Assembly (NCBI GenBank): GCA_020724845.1
Contig: DYGE01000006.1
Location: 1-51,570, forward strand
From: Candidatus Paceibacter sp.
Lineage (GTDB): Bacteria; Patescibacteriota; Minisyncoccia; UBA6257; 02-FULL-45-10c
DNA length: 51,570 bases
Direction of reading: 5' to 3'
Position numbers and translations under genes: made by a program. Below, piece after piece: positions 3,251 through 38,290 of this stretch (positions are counted from its first letter, which is position 1; each line of letters opens with the position of its first letter). The notes beneath the pieces are model-generated. The model was not told the origin of the DNA, did no database searches, and saw only the letters and a program-made list of their open reading frames with translations.

Positions 3251-5044
3251 TTATTGAGTTGTAATTTCCGCTAATTTTGATAAGTCAGACTCGGTGATGG
3301 CTTTTTTAATTGCCATCGGCTCAAGGCCCAATTTCTTATTGAATTCTTTCTGAATCTTTCTGCGACGGTTAGTTTCGGCAATGGTTTTTTTAATAGAATC
3401 AGTGATTCTGTCGGCGTAAAAAATTACCTTTCCATTCACTGATCTCGCGGCCCGTCCGGCCATCTGAATAAGTCCTCGGTAGTTGCGCAAGAATCCTTCG
3501 CGGTCAGCGTCTAAAATAGCTATTAAGCTGACTTCCGGGAGGTCCAATCCCTCTCTCAAAAGGTTTACGCCGACAACTACATCAACCTTCCCTTTTCTCA
3601 AGTCATTCAAAATCTCCGGCCTCTTCAAGGTTTTTATTTCAGAGTGAAGGTAGTGGGCTTTAATCCCGTGATTAAGTAGGAATTCCGTCAGGTCTTCAGC
3701 GGATCGCTTGGTTAAGGTAAGCGCCAAAACCCTCTCGTCTTGATTTATCCGCTTCTTTATCTCTTCCAGTAAATGATTTACTTGGGTGGCAACCGGTCGG
3801 ATAACGATTTCCGGATCCAGAATGCCGGTCGGCCTCACTAGCTGTTCGGCTATATTGGCTCCGGATTTGTCCAATTCATATGGCCCGGGCGTTGCGGAAA
3901 CATAGATTGTTTGTCTGATCTTTTCTTGAAACTCTCTGAATCTAAGAGGCCGGTTATCCAGCGCTGAAGGCAGGCGAAAGCCGTGATGTACCAGGGTGGA
4001 CTTTCTTTGCCGATCTCCTTCGTACATGGCGTTTAATTGCGGCACGGAAATGTGCGACTCGTCTATGAAAAGAAGAAATGGCTTTGGAAAATAATCCAGC
4101 AAGGTCGCTGGCGGCTCCCCGGGTTCTCTAAATGCCAAATGGCGAGAATAGTTCTCTATGCCGTTCACGTAGTTATTTTTCTTCAGCATTTCTATATCAA
4201 AAAGGGTTCTTTTTTCTATTCGGTCGGCTTCCGCGAAGCGGTTAGCCGATTGAAGCTGCTCAACCCGGTCTTCCATTTCATTCTTGATGTTCTGAAGCGC
4301 CAGCTTTAGTTTGTGCTGTGGCGTGACCCAGAATTTTGCGGGATAAATGGATATTTCCTCGATCGGATTACGATCTTCGGCGGCTAAAATCTGAATTAAT
4401 TTTTTTCCTTTGAATTCCAAATTTATTAAGTTGCCGGTAACGATGTGTATGATTACCCGATCTTTCAGAATTTTAAATTGACCTTGCGCCGGGTCTTTAG
4501 TAACCCTTTCGTATTGGAGAAAGTTAAGGTGGCGGGCCAAATCTGTCGAACTGATGTTTTGCCCGACTCTTAATTCCAGCCGAGTTTTTTGGTATTCCGA
4601 GGGGTCGCCTATGCCATAAATGCAAGAAACTGAAGCTACCACTAAAGCGTCTTTGCGGGTTAAAACATTCTGAATCGCGGAGTGGCGCAATTTATCTATT
4701 TCTTTATTTATTCGGGCATCTTTTTGGATATAGATATCCGTGTTCGGCAGGTAGGCCTCCGGCTGATAGTAGTCATAGTAGGAAACGAAATAACTTACGG
4801 CGTTGTACGGAAAGAAGGATTTGAATTCTTGATATAGCTGGGCCGCTAATATTTTGTTGGGAGAAATCACCAGCGTTGGCAGATTAAGTTTTGCGATTAC
4901 CGAGGCCATAGTAAAGGTTTTTCCGGAGCCGGTGACGCCCAAAAGAACCTGGTCTTGCTGGCCGGACTGCGTGCCGTCAATCAGCTTCTCAATAGCTTGC
5001 GGCTGGTCACCTTTTGGTTGAAAATTGGATACTAGTTTAAACAT
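3251..5044 (-). CDS. uvrB: Excinuclease ABC subunit B, lacking the C-terminal UVR domain
   Basis: Walker A LLGVTGSGKTFT, beta-hairpin YYDYYQPEAYLPNTDIYIQKDA, ATPGPYE; ends shortly after GLEPMAIKKAI. Confidence 0.97.
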   Translation of the reverse strand: MFKLVSNFQPKGDQPQAIEKLIDGTQSGQQDQVLLGVTGSGKTFTMASVIAKLNLPTLVISPNKILAAQLYQEFKSFFPYNAVSYFVSYYDYYQPEAYLPNTDIYIQKDARINKEIDKLRHSAIQNVLTRKDALVVASVSCIYGIGDPSEYQKTRLELRVGQNISSTDLARHLNFLQYERVTKDPAQGQFKILKDRVIIHIVTGNLINLEFKGKKLIQILAAEDRNPIEEISIYPAKFWVTPQHKLKLALQNIKNEMEDRVEQLQSANRFAEADRIEKRTLFDIEMLKKNNYVNGIENYSRHLAFREPGEPPATLLDYFPKPFLLFIDESHISVPQLNAMYEGDRQRKSTLVHHGFRLPSALDNRPLRFREFQEKIRQTIYVSATPGPYELDKSGANIAEQLVRPTGILDPEIVIRPVATQVNHLLEEIKKRINQDERVLALTLTKRSAEDLTEFLLNHGIKAHYLHSEIKTLKRPEILNDLRKGKVDVVVGVNLLREGLDLPEVSLIAILDADREGFLRNYRGLIQMAGRAARSVNGKVIFYADRITDSIKKTIAETNRRRKIQKEFNKKLGLEPMAIKKAITESDLSKLAEITTQ

Positions 5045-7366: not shown

Positions 7367-8758
7367 ATGGACAAAAAATTTCTGAAGAAAATTTCTGATT
7401 ATATTTGGGAAATTCCCAAGAGTTATCGCGGTGACATGAAGGTCCCGGCGCGGGTGTTTGCGAGTGAAAAATTATTGGATGTCATATTTGATGATCGTTC
7501 TCTGGATCAATTGGTAAATGTTTCCACTTTACCCGGAATACAGAAATGGGCGCTTGCGATGCCGGACATTCATGAGGGGTATGGGTTTCCGATAGGAGGG
7601 GTGGCCGCTTTTGATGCGGAGGAGGGAATTATTTCTCCCGGCGGGATCGGTTATGACATAAATTGCGGTGTCAGATTAATAAAAACCCCGGTTTCCTATG
7701 GCGAAATAAAAGATAAAATTCCGGATTTGGCGACTCAATTATATAACGAAGTGCCGTCCGGCGTGGGTAAGGGCGGTAAGTTAAAATTATCAAATAAAGA
7801 TTTGGATAATGTACTTCTAAAAGGCGTTGATGCGATGATTGAGATGGGTTACGCGATCGAAGCTGACAAAGAGTATTGCGAGTCGTTTGGTCGTTTGGAA
7901 GATGCCGACCCCGATCTGGTTTCCAAAACTGCCAAAGACCGCGGCCGCGACCAATTAGGCACCGTCGGCTCCGGCAATCATTTTGCGGAAGTCCAAGTAG
8001 TGGATGAAATTCTTAATAAAGAAACCGCCTCAAAGCTGGGACTTTTGGAAAATCAAATTGTCATTATGGTTCATTGCGGTTCTCGCGGCTTGGGCCATCA
8101 GAATGCCACCGATTATATAAAATTAATGATGTCTTCCATGCCAAAATATGGCATTGAAATACCCGATCCGGAACTTGCCTGCGCTCCGGTTAACTCTCCG
8201 GAGGGGCAGAAGTATTGGAAATCAATGCTTGCTTCCGCCAACTTTGCCTGGGCTAATAGGCAATTTATTACTCATCTGATTCGCCGGGCATGGCAAAAGG
8301 TTTTTGGAAATGGCGCTGAAGAGCTTAAGCTGATTTATGACGTTGCCCACAATCTTGCTAAAAAAGAAGAGCATTTCGGCAAGCAAGTGATAGTCCATCG
8401 CAAGGGAGCGACTCGGTCCTTTCCCGGCCAGCCGGTGTTGATACCCGGATCCATGGGTACGGCGTCTTATGTGCTGGTAGGCCAGCCGGGAGCGATGGAA
8501 TTGAGTTTCGGGAGCTCCTGCCATGGCGCGGGAAGGGTAATGTCGCGCAGCAAAGCAAAGAAAGAAGTTTGGGGAGAGGATTTAAAAAAGGAATTGGAAA
8601 ACGAAGGCATATCTATAAGATCCGGTTCTATGTCTGGCTTGGCCGAGGAGGCGCCGATTGCGTATAAAGATGTGGACGAAGTGGTGAATATCGTAGATGG
8701 CGCGGGACTCGCCAAGAAAGTTGCCAGATTAAAACCAGTGGCGGTGATTAAAGGATAG
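7367..8758 (+). CDS. rtcB: RNA-splicing ligase RtcB
   Basis: MPDIHEGYGFPIGGVAAF, GGIGYDINCGVRL, VGSGNHFAEVQ, HCGSRGLGH, SCHGAGR. Confidence 0.97.
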   Translation: MDKKFLKKISDYIWEIPKSYRGDMKVPARVFASEKLLDVIFDDRSLDQLVNVSTLPGIQKWALAMPDIHEGYGFPIGGVAAFDAEEGIISPGGIGYDINCGVRLIKTPVSYGEIKDKIPDLATQLYNEVPSGVGKGGKLKLSNKDLDNVLLKGVDAMIEMGYAIEADKEYCESFGRLEDADPDLVSKTAKDRGRDQLGTVGSGNHFAEVQVVDEILNKETASKLGLLENQIVIMVHCGSRGLGHQNATDYIKLMMSSMPKYGIEIPDPELACAPVNSPEGQKYWKSMLASANFAWANRQFITHLIRRAWQKVFGNGAEELKLIYDVAHNLAKKEEHFGKQVIVHRKGATRSFPGQPVLIPGSMGTASYVLVGQPGAMELSFGSSCHGAGRVMSRSKAKKEVWGEDLKKELENEGISIRSGSMSGLAEEAPIAYKDVDEVVNIVDGAGLAKKVARLKPVAVIKG

Positions 8759-34383: not shown

Positions 34384-34445
34384 AGTGTTTAGCGTTTAAC
34401 GTTTAGTGAATTTTTTAACCCTATACGCTAACCGCTGTACCCTAA
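34384..34445. repeat. Degenerate GTTTAGCGTTTAACGTTTAG / CTATACGCTAACCGCTG tract between trpS and rnj
   Basis: Direct reading. Confidence 0.8.
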
Positions 34446-36193
34446 ATTTCTATAAGTACCGGAAGAACCATTGGTCTTCTCTTAGTCTTATTATACAGAA
34501 GTTGTCCGATTTGGTCTCTAATGAGGGACTTCACGTAGTCTGGATCCGGATGGCTGTGCCGTGGGATGCGGGTCAGTAGGGATCTAAGTTTCATGCGGAT
34601 ATCATCCAGTAGCCTTTTGTTCTCTTTAAGGTAGATGAATCCCCTGGATATAATATCTGGTGTTTTGAGCAGGGTGCCATTCTCTCGGTTTAAGGTTGCG
34701 ATGATAACCACCATGCCCTCTTCAGATAATAGCCTTCTATCACGAAGCACTACTTCCTCTACGTCCCCGACGCCGAGGCCGTCCACCATAACATAGCTAG
34801 TTGGAACCTTTTCCTTGGTTACCACGAGCCCTTCTTCGGAGAGCAAGGCGACTTGTCCATTGTCCAAAATGACCGCATTTTCTTTCGGCATTCCGACTTT
34901 GTGAGCTATCTTAGTCGCTGCTTTTAATTTGAAATAATACGCGTGGATCGGAATCATAAATCTTGGCTTTACTAGTTTCAGCACCAACTCAATATCATCT
35001 GCCAAGCCGTGTCCGCTAGAGTGAATGTCTAATAATTTTGAGTTATAAGTTTCGTCCACCTGACGAGAAATGGCATCTTGCAACAGCTGGACACTTCTTT
35101 CATTTCCAGGCACAACCGAAGAAGAAAATATGACCGTGTCTGTCTTTTTGAAATGAATATGGCGGTGCTGGCCATTTGCCATCCTAGTAAGGGCCGCATT
35201 GGGCTCGCCTTGGCCGCCCGTTGAGAGAATCATCACCTTATTGTCTGGATATTTATGGACTTCTTCTACTGTTATAAATGTTCCCTTTTTTGCCTTGATG
35301 TGGCCGAGCCTTTGAGCTATTTGGATATTATCTTTCATCGATCGGCCGTTGGGCGCCACCTTTCTTCCGTGCTTTTCCGCCAATTTAATGATTTCCGCCA
35401 CTCTTGTAAGTAACGAGGCGAAGGTCGTCAGAATTATTCTTCCTTCAGAACCCATGATCAGTTTTTCCAGCTCGCTGGTCACGATTTCCTCCGAAAGAGA
35501 ATGTCCTTCAAAATCCGCGTTAGTGCTGTCAATAAACGCGGTATGGATATTTTTGTCAGCTAAGCGCGAGAATACATCGGTATTAGTCGCATTTCCTTTC
35601 AGGTCATATTCAACTCGGAAATCGCCGAAATGGGCCATATTGCCGGCTGGTGTTTCCAAGACGAAGCCGGTGGCATCCGGAATGGTGTGGTCCACATAAA
35701 AGAATTCAGCGGCAAAGTTTTCTGAAATTTTAAAACGATCCCCGCCTTTTATTACTTGGAATCTCGGCTTTGGAAGGCTTGGAAACTCTGAAAATCTTTT
35801 TTCAATCAGCGCCTTGGTGATTTCTACGCAGTAAATAAGGGGATTGCCAATTTTTTCGATAAGATATGGCAGGGCGTGTATGTGGTCGTAGTGGCCGTGG
35901 GTTAGAATCAGTCCGCGAATATTTTTCTTCTTTGGCTCTAGGTAGGCGGTATTTGGTATTATGTAGTCAATTCCAGGAGTTTCTTGTTCCGGAAATTGAA
36001 TGCCAACGTCAACTATTACTATTTCATTCTCATACTCAAAGAAAGCGCAGTTACGCCCAATTTCTTCCATTCCTCCTAGCGGGACAAATCGCACGGCGGC
36101 ATCTTTCTTGCTATTTGCCGTTCCATGCGCTAGCCCTCTTTTGGGAGCTAAGCTTGTCCTTTTTTTAAATATTCTTTTTGGTGCTCTAATCAC
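34442..36193 (-). CDS. rnj: Ribonuclease J
   Basis: FVPLGGMEEIGRNCAFFEYENEIVIVDVG; LTHGHYDHIHALPYL; IHSSGHGLADDIELVLKLVKPRFMIPIHAYYF. Confidence 0.95.
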   Translation of the reverse strand: MIRAPKRIFKKRTSLAPKRGLAHGTANSKKDAAVRFVPLGGMEEIGRNCAFFEYENEIVIVDVGIQFPEQETPGIDYIIPNTAYLEPKKKNIRGLILTHGHYDHIHALPYLIEKIGNPLIYCVEITKALIEKRFSEFPSLPKPRFQVIKGGDRFKISENFAAEFFYVDHTIPDATGFVLETPAGNMAHFGDFRVEYDLKGNATNTDVFSRLADKNIHTAFIDSTNADFEGHSLSEEIVTSELEKLIMGSEGRIILTTFASLLTRVAEIIKLAEKHGRKVAPNGRSMKDNIQIAQRLGHIKAKKGTFITVEEVHKYPDNKVMILSTGGQGEPNAALTRMANGQHRHIHFKKTDTVIFSSSVVPGNERSVQLLQDAISRQVDETYNSKLLDIHSSGHGLADDIELVLKLVKPRFMIPIHAYYFKLKAATKIAHKVGMPKENAVILDNGQVALLSEEGLVVTKEKVPTSYVMVDGLGVGDVEEVVLRDRRLLSEEGMVVIIATLNRENGTLLKTPDIISRGFIYLKENKRLLDDIRMKLRSLLTRIPRHSHPDPDYVKSLIRDQIGQLLYNKTKRRPMVLPVLIEI

Positions 36194-36280: not shown

Positions 36281-36452
36281 ATAATTTTAATTTTTTGTTA
36301 ATTTTACTAATTATTTTTTTTGATTTTGGTTTAGTTGGGAGCCTGCCGGTAGGCAGAGATTCTCCGTCGCGGCGGGGTTTATTATATACAATGTGCTGGG
36401 GAGGAGATTCGAACTCCTATAGTCTTGCGACTGTCCCGCTCTCCATAATTTG

Positions 36453-36536
36453 TGCGGCTGAGAGGATTTGAACCTCCACGGGATTGCTCCCACAGGCTCC
36501 TGAAGCCTGCGCGTCTGCCAATTCCGCCACAGCCGC
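36453..36536 (-). tRNA. tRNA-Leu(CAG), complete, nested inside the interrupted tRNA-Leu(GAG)
   Basis: GCGGCTG/CAGCCGC acceptor, CAGGC-TTCAGGA-GCCTG anticodon arm, GAGGTTCAAATCCTC T-arm. Confidence 0.93.
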
Positions 36537-36559
36537 ATTTTGTTAATGTTATCGGGATG

Positions 36560-36575
36560 TGCCTGCCGGCAGGCA
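36560..36575. repeat. Perfect palindrome TGCCTGCCGGCAGGCA inserted in the 5' half of tRNA-Leu(GAG)
   Basis: Direct reading; related element GCCTGCCGGTAGGC near 36343-36356. Confidence 0.8.
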
Positions 36576-36628
36576 GGTCTGCCAGTTTCACCACCCCAGC
36601 ACGCTGTATATAATATCCTGCCCTTCCA

Positions 36629-38290
36629 CTATTTAAATATTCTAGTTGTTTTCAGATACCAGCGATGAACGTTTTTGAAACGATCGGCTGGCGTATTTAT
36701 CACTCTTTCTTCAAATCCACCAAGGTTTTTTGGCCCGACATAGAGATAGGTCGGTGAATAGAGGAAGATAGCCGGCATGTCTTTGCTGATCAAGTTTTGC
36801 AGCTCCGACAATTCTTTTCCCCTAGATTCCGGGTCAAAATTTTTCCTAGTTGACTCCAGCAATGAATCGACCTTTTTGTTATTGTAAAGGGCCAAATTTA
36901 ATCCGGGATAGAATCTTTCAGAAGAATGCCAGAAAGAAAAGATATCCGGGTTGCTTCTTAGTATGTTTCCAAAAATTATCATTTGGTAATTTCTAGTTTT
37001 TATTACTTCGTTTGTTACGTCGGCTGGGTTCAGGAATATCGGCTTAAGTGAAATGCCGGCTTTAGCCCAATCCGCTTTAATGATTTCAATGGTTTCTGTT
37101 AGAAACGATATCTGCGGAACCACTATTGAAAATTCCAGCAGCTTCTCTTGTCCGCTTACTTTTTTCGTCCGAATATTGTTTTCTTCATTTAATTCCCATT
37201 GATCGTCTTCTAATAAGGAGACGGCTTCTTCTATAGAAAATTCAGTCATGGGGCTCGCGCTTATGTCATAGCCGTCCATAACTGGAAGGATCGGCTGATT
37301 GACTATGGATGCTCTTCCTAAGAAAACCTCATCAATAATTCTTTTTTTGTCTGTGGCCAAGCTAAGGGCCCGGATTAAGTCTGGGTCTTCGAGGTTGGGG
37401 GCCGCGCTTTTATTAAAGAAGATGGCATAATATTGCGGCATTCTTATTTCTAATATTTGATGGCTTAATTTCAGGTTGCCAAGATTTTTAGGACTTATTC
37501 CCCCTAAGCCGTCTATGCGCTTTTGATTAAAGGCATCGATAGCTTCCGCGGTGCTTGGGTAGAATTTAACCTCGAATTCCTTTATGAACGGTTTTTCTAA
37601 AGAGAAGTGCTCGTTAGTAGCCAGTTTGTAGCCGGTAATGAACCCATCTTTTCTTTTCTCTGAAGAGATGAATCTATAAGGGCCGCTACCGACTGGTTCC
37701 AGGTTAAATTCGGATAATCTGAAGTTTTCTACGGGGATAGCGCCAAATATATGCCGCGGTATTATTCTAAAGCCTTTTAGGTTATCTAAGAAAAAAGCGT
37801 AAGGCGTTCTTAACGCGAATTCTACCTCTCTTTCGCTGATTCTGTTCACGACTATGCCTTGCCAAGTCAGGAACAGCGGCGATCGGCTGTTAGGATTTTG
37901 TATGGCATCAATAGTGAAAAGAATGTCGTCGCTGGTTATCGGCTTGCCATCGCTCCAGCGAAGATTGGATTTTAAGGTAACATTCCAAGTCTGCCCATCC
38001 GGGCTGACCTTGTAACTCTCCGACAAATCAATTAGGCCGCTGAATAATAATTCTATAAGATCCCTATCAACGTCGTTTGTGCCGGCAATGACGGGATTTA
38101 TGGCTATTGGTTGGCCGATAACGCCTTCTCGATAAATCTGGCTTTCTACCGGGACCTCTATTGTGGCCGTTTGGAATATTAGAATGGCCCAGAGGATCCC
38201 CGATGCCAAGAAAATCAATAAAGACCCCCAGAAGATTTGGCGCTCGGTTTTTGTAAAGCTATTAAAAATTTGGTTTATAAAGTTAACCAT
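36629..38290 (-). CDS. Peptide ABC transporter substrate-binding protein (SBP family 5)
   Basis: N-terminal TM; LIELLFSGLIDLSESYKVSPDGQTWNVTLKSNLRWSDGKPITSDDILFTIDAI. Confidence 0.92.
   Translation of the reverse strand: MVNFINQIFNSFTKTERQIFWGSLLIFLASGILWAILIFQTATIEVPVESQIYREGVIGQPIAINPVIAGTNDVDRDLIELLFSGLIDLSESYKVSPDGQTWNVTLKSNLRWSDGKPITSDDILFTIDAIQNPNSRSPLFLTWQGIVVNRISEREVEFALRTPYAFFLDNLKGFRIIPRHIFGAIPVENFRLSEFNLEPVGSGPYRFISSEKRKDGFITGYKLATNEHFSLEKPFIKEFEVKFYPSTAEAIDAFNQKRIDGLGGISPKNLGNLKLSHQILEIRMPQYYAIFFNKSAAPNLEDPDLIRALSLATDKKRIIDEVFLGRASIVNQPILPVMDGYDISASPMTEFSIEEAVSLLEDDQWELNEENNIRTKKVSGQEKLLEFSIVVPQISFLTETIEIIKADWAKAGISLKPIFLNPADVTNEVIKTRNYQMIIFGNILRSNPDIFSFWHSSERFYPGLNLALYNNKKVDSLLESTRKNFDPESRGKELSELQNLISKDMPAIFLYSPTYLYVGPKNLGGFEERVINTPADRFKNVHRWYLKTTRIFK

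Follow-up and report, generated by a model that had tools for sequence, protein, structure and literature searches.

About 100 "Russian doll" tRNA genes, in which a complete tRNA gene lies between the two halves of another, were found in candidate-phyla bacteria, and they suggest that tRNA genes in these bacteria have been replaced repeatedly, a complete new copy being inserted in the middle of the old one. One of them lies in a 51,570-nt contig stretch of Candidatus Paceibacter sp. (the window), for which a tRNA gene nested inside another tRNA gene had been proposed in a sequence-only reading. All of the coordinates in that reading were correct on re-reading, and the nested arrangement was confirmed as genuine: an outer, split tRNA-Leu at 36600–36394 on the minus strand surrounds an intact tRNA-Leu(CAG) at 36536–36453. 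The parts of the locus and the genes referred to below are as follows (the two neighboring protein genes were named from translations read by eye).

36578..36600, minus strand: 5′ half of the outer tRNA-Leu (GCTGGGG, U8-G9, D arm to GGCAGA), read directly; pairs 7/7 with 36395–36401
36562..36577, minus strand: palindromic (REP-like) insert CCTGCCTGCCGGCAGG on the 3′ side of the D arm, read directly
36553..36561, minus strand: CACA (remaining D stem) and probable left insert border TCCCG, a border as in other nested Leu loci
36537..36552, minus strand: left spacer ATAACATTAACAAAAT before the inner tRNA, read directly
36453..36536, minus strand: inner tRNA-Leu(CAG), intact, from ARAGORN, Rfam, and the genome tRNA set
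36434..36452, minus strand: right spacer CAAATTATGGAGAG and probable right border CGGGA, read directly
36394..36433, minus strand: 3′ half of the outer tRNA-Leu (variable arm, T arm, CCCCAGC, discriminator A); T stem 5/5, acceptor 7/7
36629..38290, minus strand: upstream gene, presumably for an oppA-like peptide-binding protein; synteny anchor
34442..36193, minus strand: downstream gene, which we take to be ribonuclease-J-like
7508..8755, plus strand: RtcB ligase (PF01139 match)

The 7-bp acceptor and 5-bp T stems previously claimed for the outer tRNA were borne out, with GCTGGGG (36600–36594) and CCCCAGC (36401–36395) pairing at 7/7 positions and the T stem at 5/5. Similarly, the 107 nt between the outer halves (36550–36444) did contain the complete tRNA-Leu(CAG), which was detected with both ARAGORN and Rfam (56.1 bits). 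TCCCG (36557–36553) is able to pair with CGGGA (36438–36434), and the minimum-energy fold formed the outer arms together with the inner acceptor stem (z = −4.0). With the outer arms formed in this fold and the layout shared by many genomes, a chance arrangement is excluded. The 107-nt insert contains only the tRNA, with no integrase gene and no ORF. The longest perfect inverted-repeat run at the locus is short (5); ATAA of the left spacer can pair with TTAT on the right, a short and weak pairing here, and the right border (G)CGGGA/G is common to nested loci. The D-arm insert had been described as an 18-nt palindrome; it is palindromic, and its length is best read as 16 nt (CCTGCCTGCCGGCAGG), leaving GTG/CAC as the D stem. 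The palindrome occurs as a single copy within the window, and longer forms of it occupy the same place in the D arm of tRNA 5′ halves preceding GIY-YIG ORFs in three genomes (G012, G003, and the source genome, G000). Hairpins interrupt the D arm of many outer tRNAs. Many outer 5′ halves (e.g., L382 in G011, L087, L184, L195, and L317) have a hairpin of the CCCCAGCACC..GGTGCGGGG type in the D loop, usually soon after its GG.

The proposed anticodon stem of the outer tRNA, TCCCG/CGGGA closing the loop AT-GAG-AG, is doubtful. TCCCG/CGGGA was found at the same place in the outer Leu halves of unrelated genomes (L094, L319, L328, L236, and L279), with CCCCG/CGGGG at that border place in L186, and its position is constant even though the acceptor stems differ. 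Since it recurs at the insert border in unrelated nested Leu loci, TCCCG/CGGGA is probably the border of the insert rather than an anticodon stem, and the Leu locus is best read as one in which the insert has replaced the anticodon arm. The Leu outers, that of the 36600–36394 locus included, appear to have no native anticodon arm. tRNAs that read CUN codons normally carry G at position 37; the proposed loop has A37 instead, whereas the Leu CAG, TAG, and GAG tRNAs of the source genome all have G37. The outer tRNA is unlikely to be a Leu(GAG). We abandoned the idea of one mobile sequence behind all Leu outers, given their differing acceptor stems.

The source genome (0.87 Mb, 51 tRNAs) carries the nested Leu locus on contig C8, and the inner gene is its sole tRNA-Leu(CAG). 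An intact tRNA-Leu(TAG) lies on contig C11 and an intact tRNA-Leu(GAG) at C3:25071–25154; therefore, the outer tRNA is not required as a GAG tRNA. A second nested locus in this genome (L072, C3:72066–72139) consists of a tRNA-Ala(CGC) inside a degraded tRNA-Ala, and here, too, the inner gene is the only Ala(CGC) of the genome. Of the two explanations that had been offered for the locus, a pseudogene or an intron-like arrangement, the former is supported because an intact Leu(GAG) exists and the outer halves are degraded in relatives, and the same observations speak against the latter. However, "pseudogene" alone misses the main point, which is that the arrangement is widespread, same-isotype, and layered.

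In most of the relatives examined, the oppA-like gene is followed by a single, un-nested Leu(CAG), and the inner tRNA-Leu(CAG) of the source genome is orthologous to this gene. Outer halves or remnants were present at the oppA locus in G000, G020, G033, G017, G225, and G029, with differing decay: the outer of G020 has no restorable anticodon loop, that of G033 has lost its variable arm, G017 has the 3′ half only, and G225 and G029 have a 5′ piece only. Judged by the T arm, it is the inner and not the outer tRNA of the source genome that matches the resident Leu(CAG) of the family. Therefore, either the insertion took place long ago or its source was a close relative, unless the outer was instead built around the resident Leu(CAG), an alternative that keeps a small residual probability.

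For the survey, we used a pattern of two T arms too close together for tandem tRNAs (GTTCRANTC N34–62 GTTCRANTC) on draft genomes, many from metagenomes, with one genome per species. The pattern was present in 80 of the 245 genomes of the order and in 87 of 384 sampled across the phylum. ARAGORN placed a tRNA at the first T arm, that is, an intact inner gene, in 108 of the 118 order-level matches examined, and a confident outer 5′ half, according to our own scoring scheme, lay upstream in 57 of these 108 loci. The outer acceptor stem paired 7/7 in about half of the loci; because the search demands intact T loops, well-kept outer copies are favored. When Bacteroidales were searched as a control, the raw pattern occurred in 50 of 198 larger genomes, mostly as matches in coding sequences as far as these were readable, and for this reason only loci with an ARAGORN tRNA were counted as nested. 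In a wider scan of contigs, wide gaps admit normal tandem tRNAs, and only re-checked loci were used. The intron mode of ARAGORN found some of the outers with wrong anticodons and missed the 36600–36394 locus. The isotypes of the nested loci include Ala, Thr, Glu, Ser, Leu, Pro, Gly, Arg, Cys, and Val, and their hosts, among the matches listed, include Wolfebacteria, Harrisonbacteria, Portnoybacteria, Nealsonbacteria, Taylorbacteria, Kerfeldbacteria, Amesbacteria, Roizmanbacteria, Levyibacteriota, and a Kazan bacterium. A few further matches listed came from metagenome-assembled genomes labelled as other phyla, which could be mis-binned. We found no description of nested tRNA genes of this kind in the literature searched, in which few subscription journals were covered. 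A different kind of interruption was seen in L138 (G126, contig C19), where ~250 nt, possibly a group I intron, interrupt a tRNA-Thr(GGT) after the anticodon.

The usual order of a nested locus was a 5′ half, a left repeat (often CCCCGCAC, or TCCCGC), a complete tRNA, a right repeat (GTGCGGGG or GCGGGA), and a 3′ half. The isotype nearest to the outer tRNA was that of the inner tRNA in 49 of the 57 loci, a number reached in 0 of 2000 shuffles (permutation mean 6.0). Inner and outer were near-identical in only 2 of the 57 pairs, so that the inner gene, though the same kind of tRNA, can seldom be a recent duplicate of the outer one. Perfect complementary runs of ≥7 flanked the inner tRNA in 42 of the 57 loci, compared with 14.7% when partners were swapped. 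The insertion points varied, lying before the anticodon stem, in the anticodon, or after the loop. Automated rejoining of the outer anticodon arms was too permissive (46 of 57 joinable, with the inner anticodon best in 8 and among the candidates in 19); therefore, we relied on isotype similarity and on joins read by hand, which restored the inner tRNA's own anticodon in several loci, among them Pro(CGG) L075, Arg(TCG) L085, Thr(TGT) L178, and Val(TAC) L182. In two congeners with a nested tRNA-Gly(TCC) (L144 and L145 in G147 and G148), the inner and outer copies of each species are nearly identical, and both differ in concert between the species, suggesting gene conversion.

Some loci were two or three layers deep, in concentric order. 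In L451 and L452, acceptor stem and border repeat link the sole 5′ half to a 3′ half with another 3′ half in front of it, and L139 has three successive Gly 3′ halves that all start at the same point after CGGGA. At one Pro(CGG) locus of one genus, the CGGACTG tRNA is uninterrupted in G015, where an older 3′ half comes after it; in G016, the two halves of this tRNA enclose a CGGAGTG tRNA; the nested locus of G011 has a different outer; and in G001, only the CGGAGTG tRNA is present. Such alleles, as well as the concentric layers, are a prediction of successive replacement.

We read these loci as the outcome of serial same-isotype replacement of tRNA genes by insertion, the outer being a dying relic and the inner the working gene, and give this reading a probability of about 0.68. 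It is built on the observed layout and its recurrence, the isotype agreement, the inverted repeats, the layering, the outer-type allele that one genus has in uninterrupted form, and the inner gene's being the only Leu(CAG) of the source genome. In this reading, an earlier tRNA gene would be broken in its anticodon arm when a whole tRNA of its own isotype, flanked by a short inverted repeat, was inserted there. The insertion would be tolerated because a working replacement came along with it, and the broken outer would then gather hairpins and deletions and eventually be lost, until the next replacement. We infer that the outer is unused in translation, a broken copy that is dead and decaying, and that DNA uptake from a relative is the usual source of the insert. 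Our leading guess for the mechanism is a nuclease-started break repaired with incoming DNA, which is favored because GIY-YIG ORFs occupy a related position: in G012, G003, and G000 (one-sided loci L048, L049, and L069), GIY-YIG ORFs (PF01541) lie between a tRNA 5′ half and the full tRNA. Only these related one-sided loci carry such an ORF, and the 107-nt insert contains no homing-type endonuclease. In L069 (634–960; contig C13 of G000, about 4593–4960), the GIY-YIG ORF stands between a tRNA-Thr(GGT) 5′ half, which contains a 20-nt palindrome, and the full tRNA-Thr(GGT) after it. Counterpoints to replacement are the shortness of the repeat at 36600–36394, the likeness of the inner rather than the outer tRNA there to the family's resident Leu(CAG), the varying insertion points, and the fact that no integrating enzyme was found; in addition, the perfect outer acceptor and T stems at 36600–36394 and the many 7/7 outers could reflect selection rather than recency.

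One rival reading is an intron-like arrangement: RNase P and RNase Z would free the inner tRNA, and the outer halves would be rejoined or serve as a nicked tRNA, so that one gene yields two tRNAs. The intact outer acceptor and T stems at 36600–36394 and at many other loci are in line with this, as are the well-formed tRNAs produced by exact joining in L075 (Pro CGG), L085 (Arg TCG), and L178 (Thr TGT), and the source genome has RtcB. The presence of RtcB in the window, noted in the sequence-only reading, was verified by the PF01139 match, whereas no support was found for the link raised there as speculation: 20 of the 80 genomes with the pattern have RtcB against 36 of the 165 without it (Fisher p = 0.63; 56 of 244 genomes overall), and since no association was seen across the order and 60 of the 80 pattern genomes have no RtcB, it is not required. 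EndA (PF01974) was absent from the source genome, while a control search found PF01974 in four archaea, and no Rfam intron or ribozyme matched in the window at the gathering threshold or in 12 nested loci at a relaxed threshold. An intron of the EndA/bulge-helix-bulge type would leave a usable joined tRNA that the cell needs; here, a Leu(GAG) is present elsewhere in the genome, G37 is missing, and the D arm carries an insert. Given also that Leu outers appear to have no native anticodon arm, that hairpins break the D arm of many outers, and that outer and inner are mostly duplicates of one isotype, we consider the intron-like reading very improbable. Slightly less improbable, though still poorly favored, is a non-decoding scaffold: a tRNA-like outer fold, carrying the inner tRNA where the anticodon loop would be, would be retained as an aid to processing or regulation. 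Such a role fits the fold (z = −4.0 for the entire structure, outer arms included) and the 7/7 acceptors in about half of the loci, but most relatives have the same inner tRNA at the same locus without any outer, and one-sided, decayed remnants are common.

Ordinary template switching and recombination might also pile up fragments and hairpins with no dedicated process, selection retaining the intact copy. The varying insertion points would be expected from this, as would the several families of border repeats, one of which also occurs outside tRNAs, and the missing enzyme: the Y1 (HUH) transposase is absent from the source genome and showed no association with the pattern in the order (28/80 versus 43/165, p = 0.18). 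However, the concentric order, the same-isotype rule, the two-sided inverted repeats, and the reused cut point are hard to obtain by accident, and we regard this explanation as unlikely, if the strongest of the rivals. All of the genomes are drafts, many of them metagenomic, and assembly artefacts could in principle generate nested genes; with the same layout in many independent assemblies, congeners nested at the same place (G016 and G011), and like nested loci in G147 and G148, this has next to no probability.

Serial replacement resembles several known systems in part. Mobile ORF elements of fungal mitochondria (Allomyces atp6; Glomus atp6, atp9, cox2, and nad3), whose endonucleases include GIY-YIG enzymes and whose copies differ far more in DNA than in protein (PMC3630166), likewise bring a replacement for the part they break and leave the old part as a displaced relic. 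In contrast, those elements carry an endonuclease ORF and replace one end of a protein gene, whereas the bacterial insert is a whole gene without an ORF and has relics on both sides. Genomic islands inserted in tRNA genes by tyrosine integrases (Islander, PMC4383910) also split their target and leave a working tRNA beside a displaced fragment, and at the 36600–36394 locus we found a working inner tRNA with two displaced outer halves. Islands, however, are large integrase-bearing elements that leave the tRNA restored at one end; the nested insert is ~107 nt, has no integrase, and holds the working tRNA in its middle. The short, non-coding hairpins of REP/REPIN palindromes, which are associated with RAYT (Y1) transposases (PMC8266576, PMC3116915), resemble the border repeats and the D-arm inserts, and one border-repeat family occurs in several copies, including free hairpins in relatives. 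Unlike in REP systems, the Y1 transposase is absent from the source genome and unassociated with the pattern. We are not aware of any REP with a tRNA gene in it. Archaeal intron-containing, split, and permuted tRNA genes (reviewed in PMC4033280 and PMC4390854) are also interrupted near the anticodon, but they are spliced by a tRNA endonuclease at bulge-helix-bulge motifs, whereas EndA is absent from the source genome and the outer halves look dispensable. Synthetic home-and-rescue gene drives (PMC7968924) similarly break a needed gene while supplying a working copy, but are engineered. If repeated same-isotype replacement is true, the nested loci would be a natural bacterial counterpart of insertion with rescue. 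tRNA genes are usually regarded as stable genes passed on vertically; a sizeable fraction of the genomes in the candidate phyla would then hold a readable history of core-gene turnover, a record missed by standard tRNA annotation.

The border repeats belong to several families, and one of these also forms free hairpins outside tRNAs in relatives. On both sides of four such hairpins, picked by hand (L350, L371, L373, and L357), the start of a protein gene is repeated, which we take from the translations to be tsaD (L350 and L371), transketolase (L373), and typA, twice (L357). Relic and working copies of these genes differ by 18 synonymous and 3 non-synonymous codons, and because of this bias, they seem to have diverged as functional genes before coming together. 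The protein-gene starts at hairpins offer a lead to the mechanism. Tentatively, and at odds clearly below even, a more general natural process of insertion and rescue may operate in candidate-phyla bacteria, in which hairpin-bordered cassettes enter conserved genes, supply a working replacement from another lineage for the gene they break, and leave layered relics as core genes are displaced one after another; its targets would be tRNAs and, perhaps, 5S rRNA along with the 5′ ends of the tsaD, typA, and transketolase genes. In L357 (G056, contig C1), two successive dead typA-like 5′ ends, each terminated by a hairpin, precede the working gene. In L353 (G048, contig C1), what we identified by eye as a 5S rRNA gene lies between the arms of a CCCCG..CACC/GGTGCGGGG repeat, as tRNAs do. 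In L455 (G153, contig C42), the beginning of a valS-like gene is enclosed by the two arms of this repeat, and the reading frame runs through the right arm.
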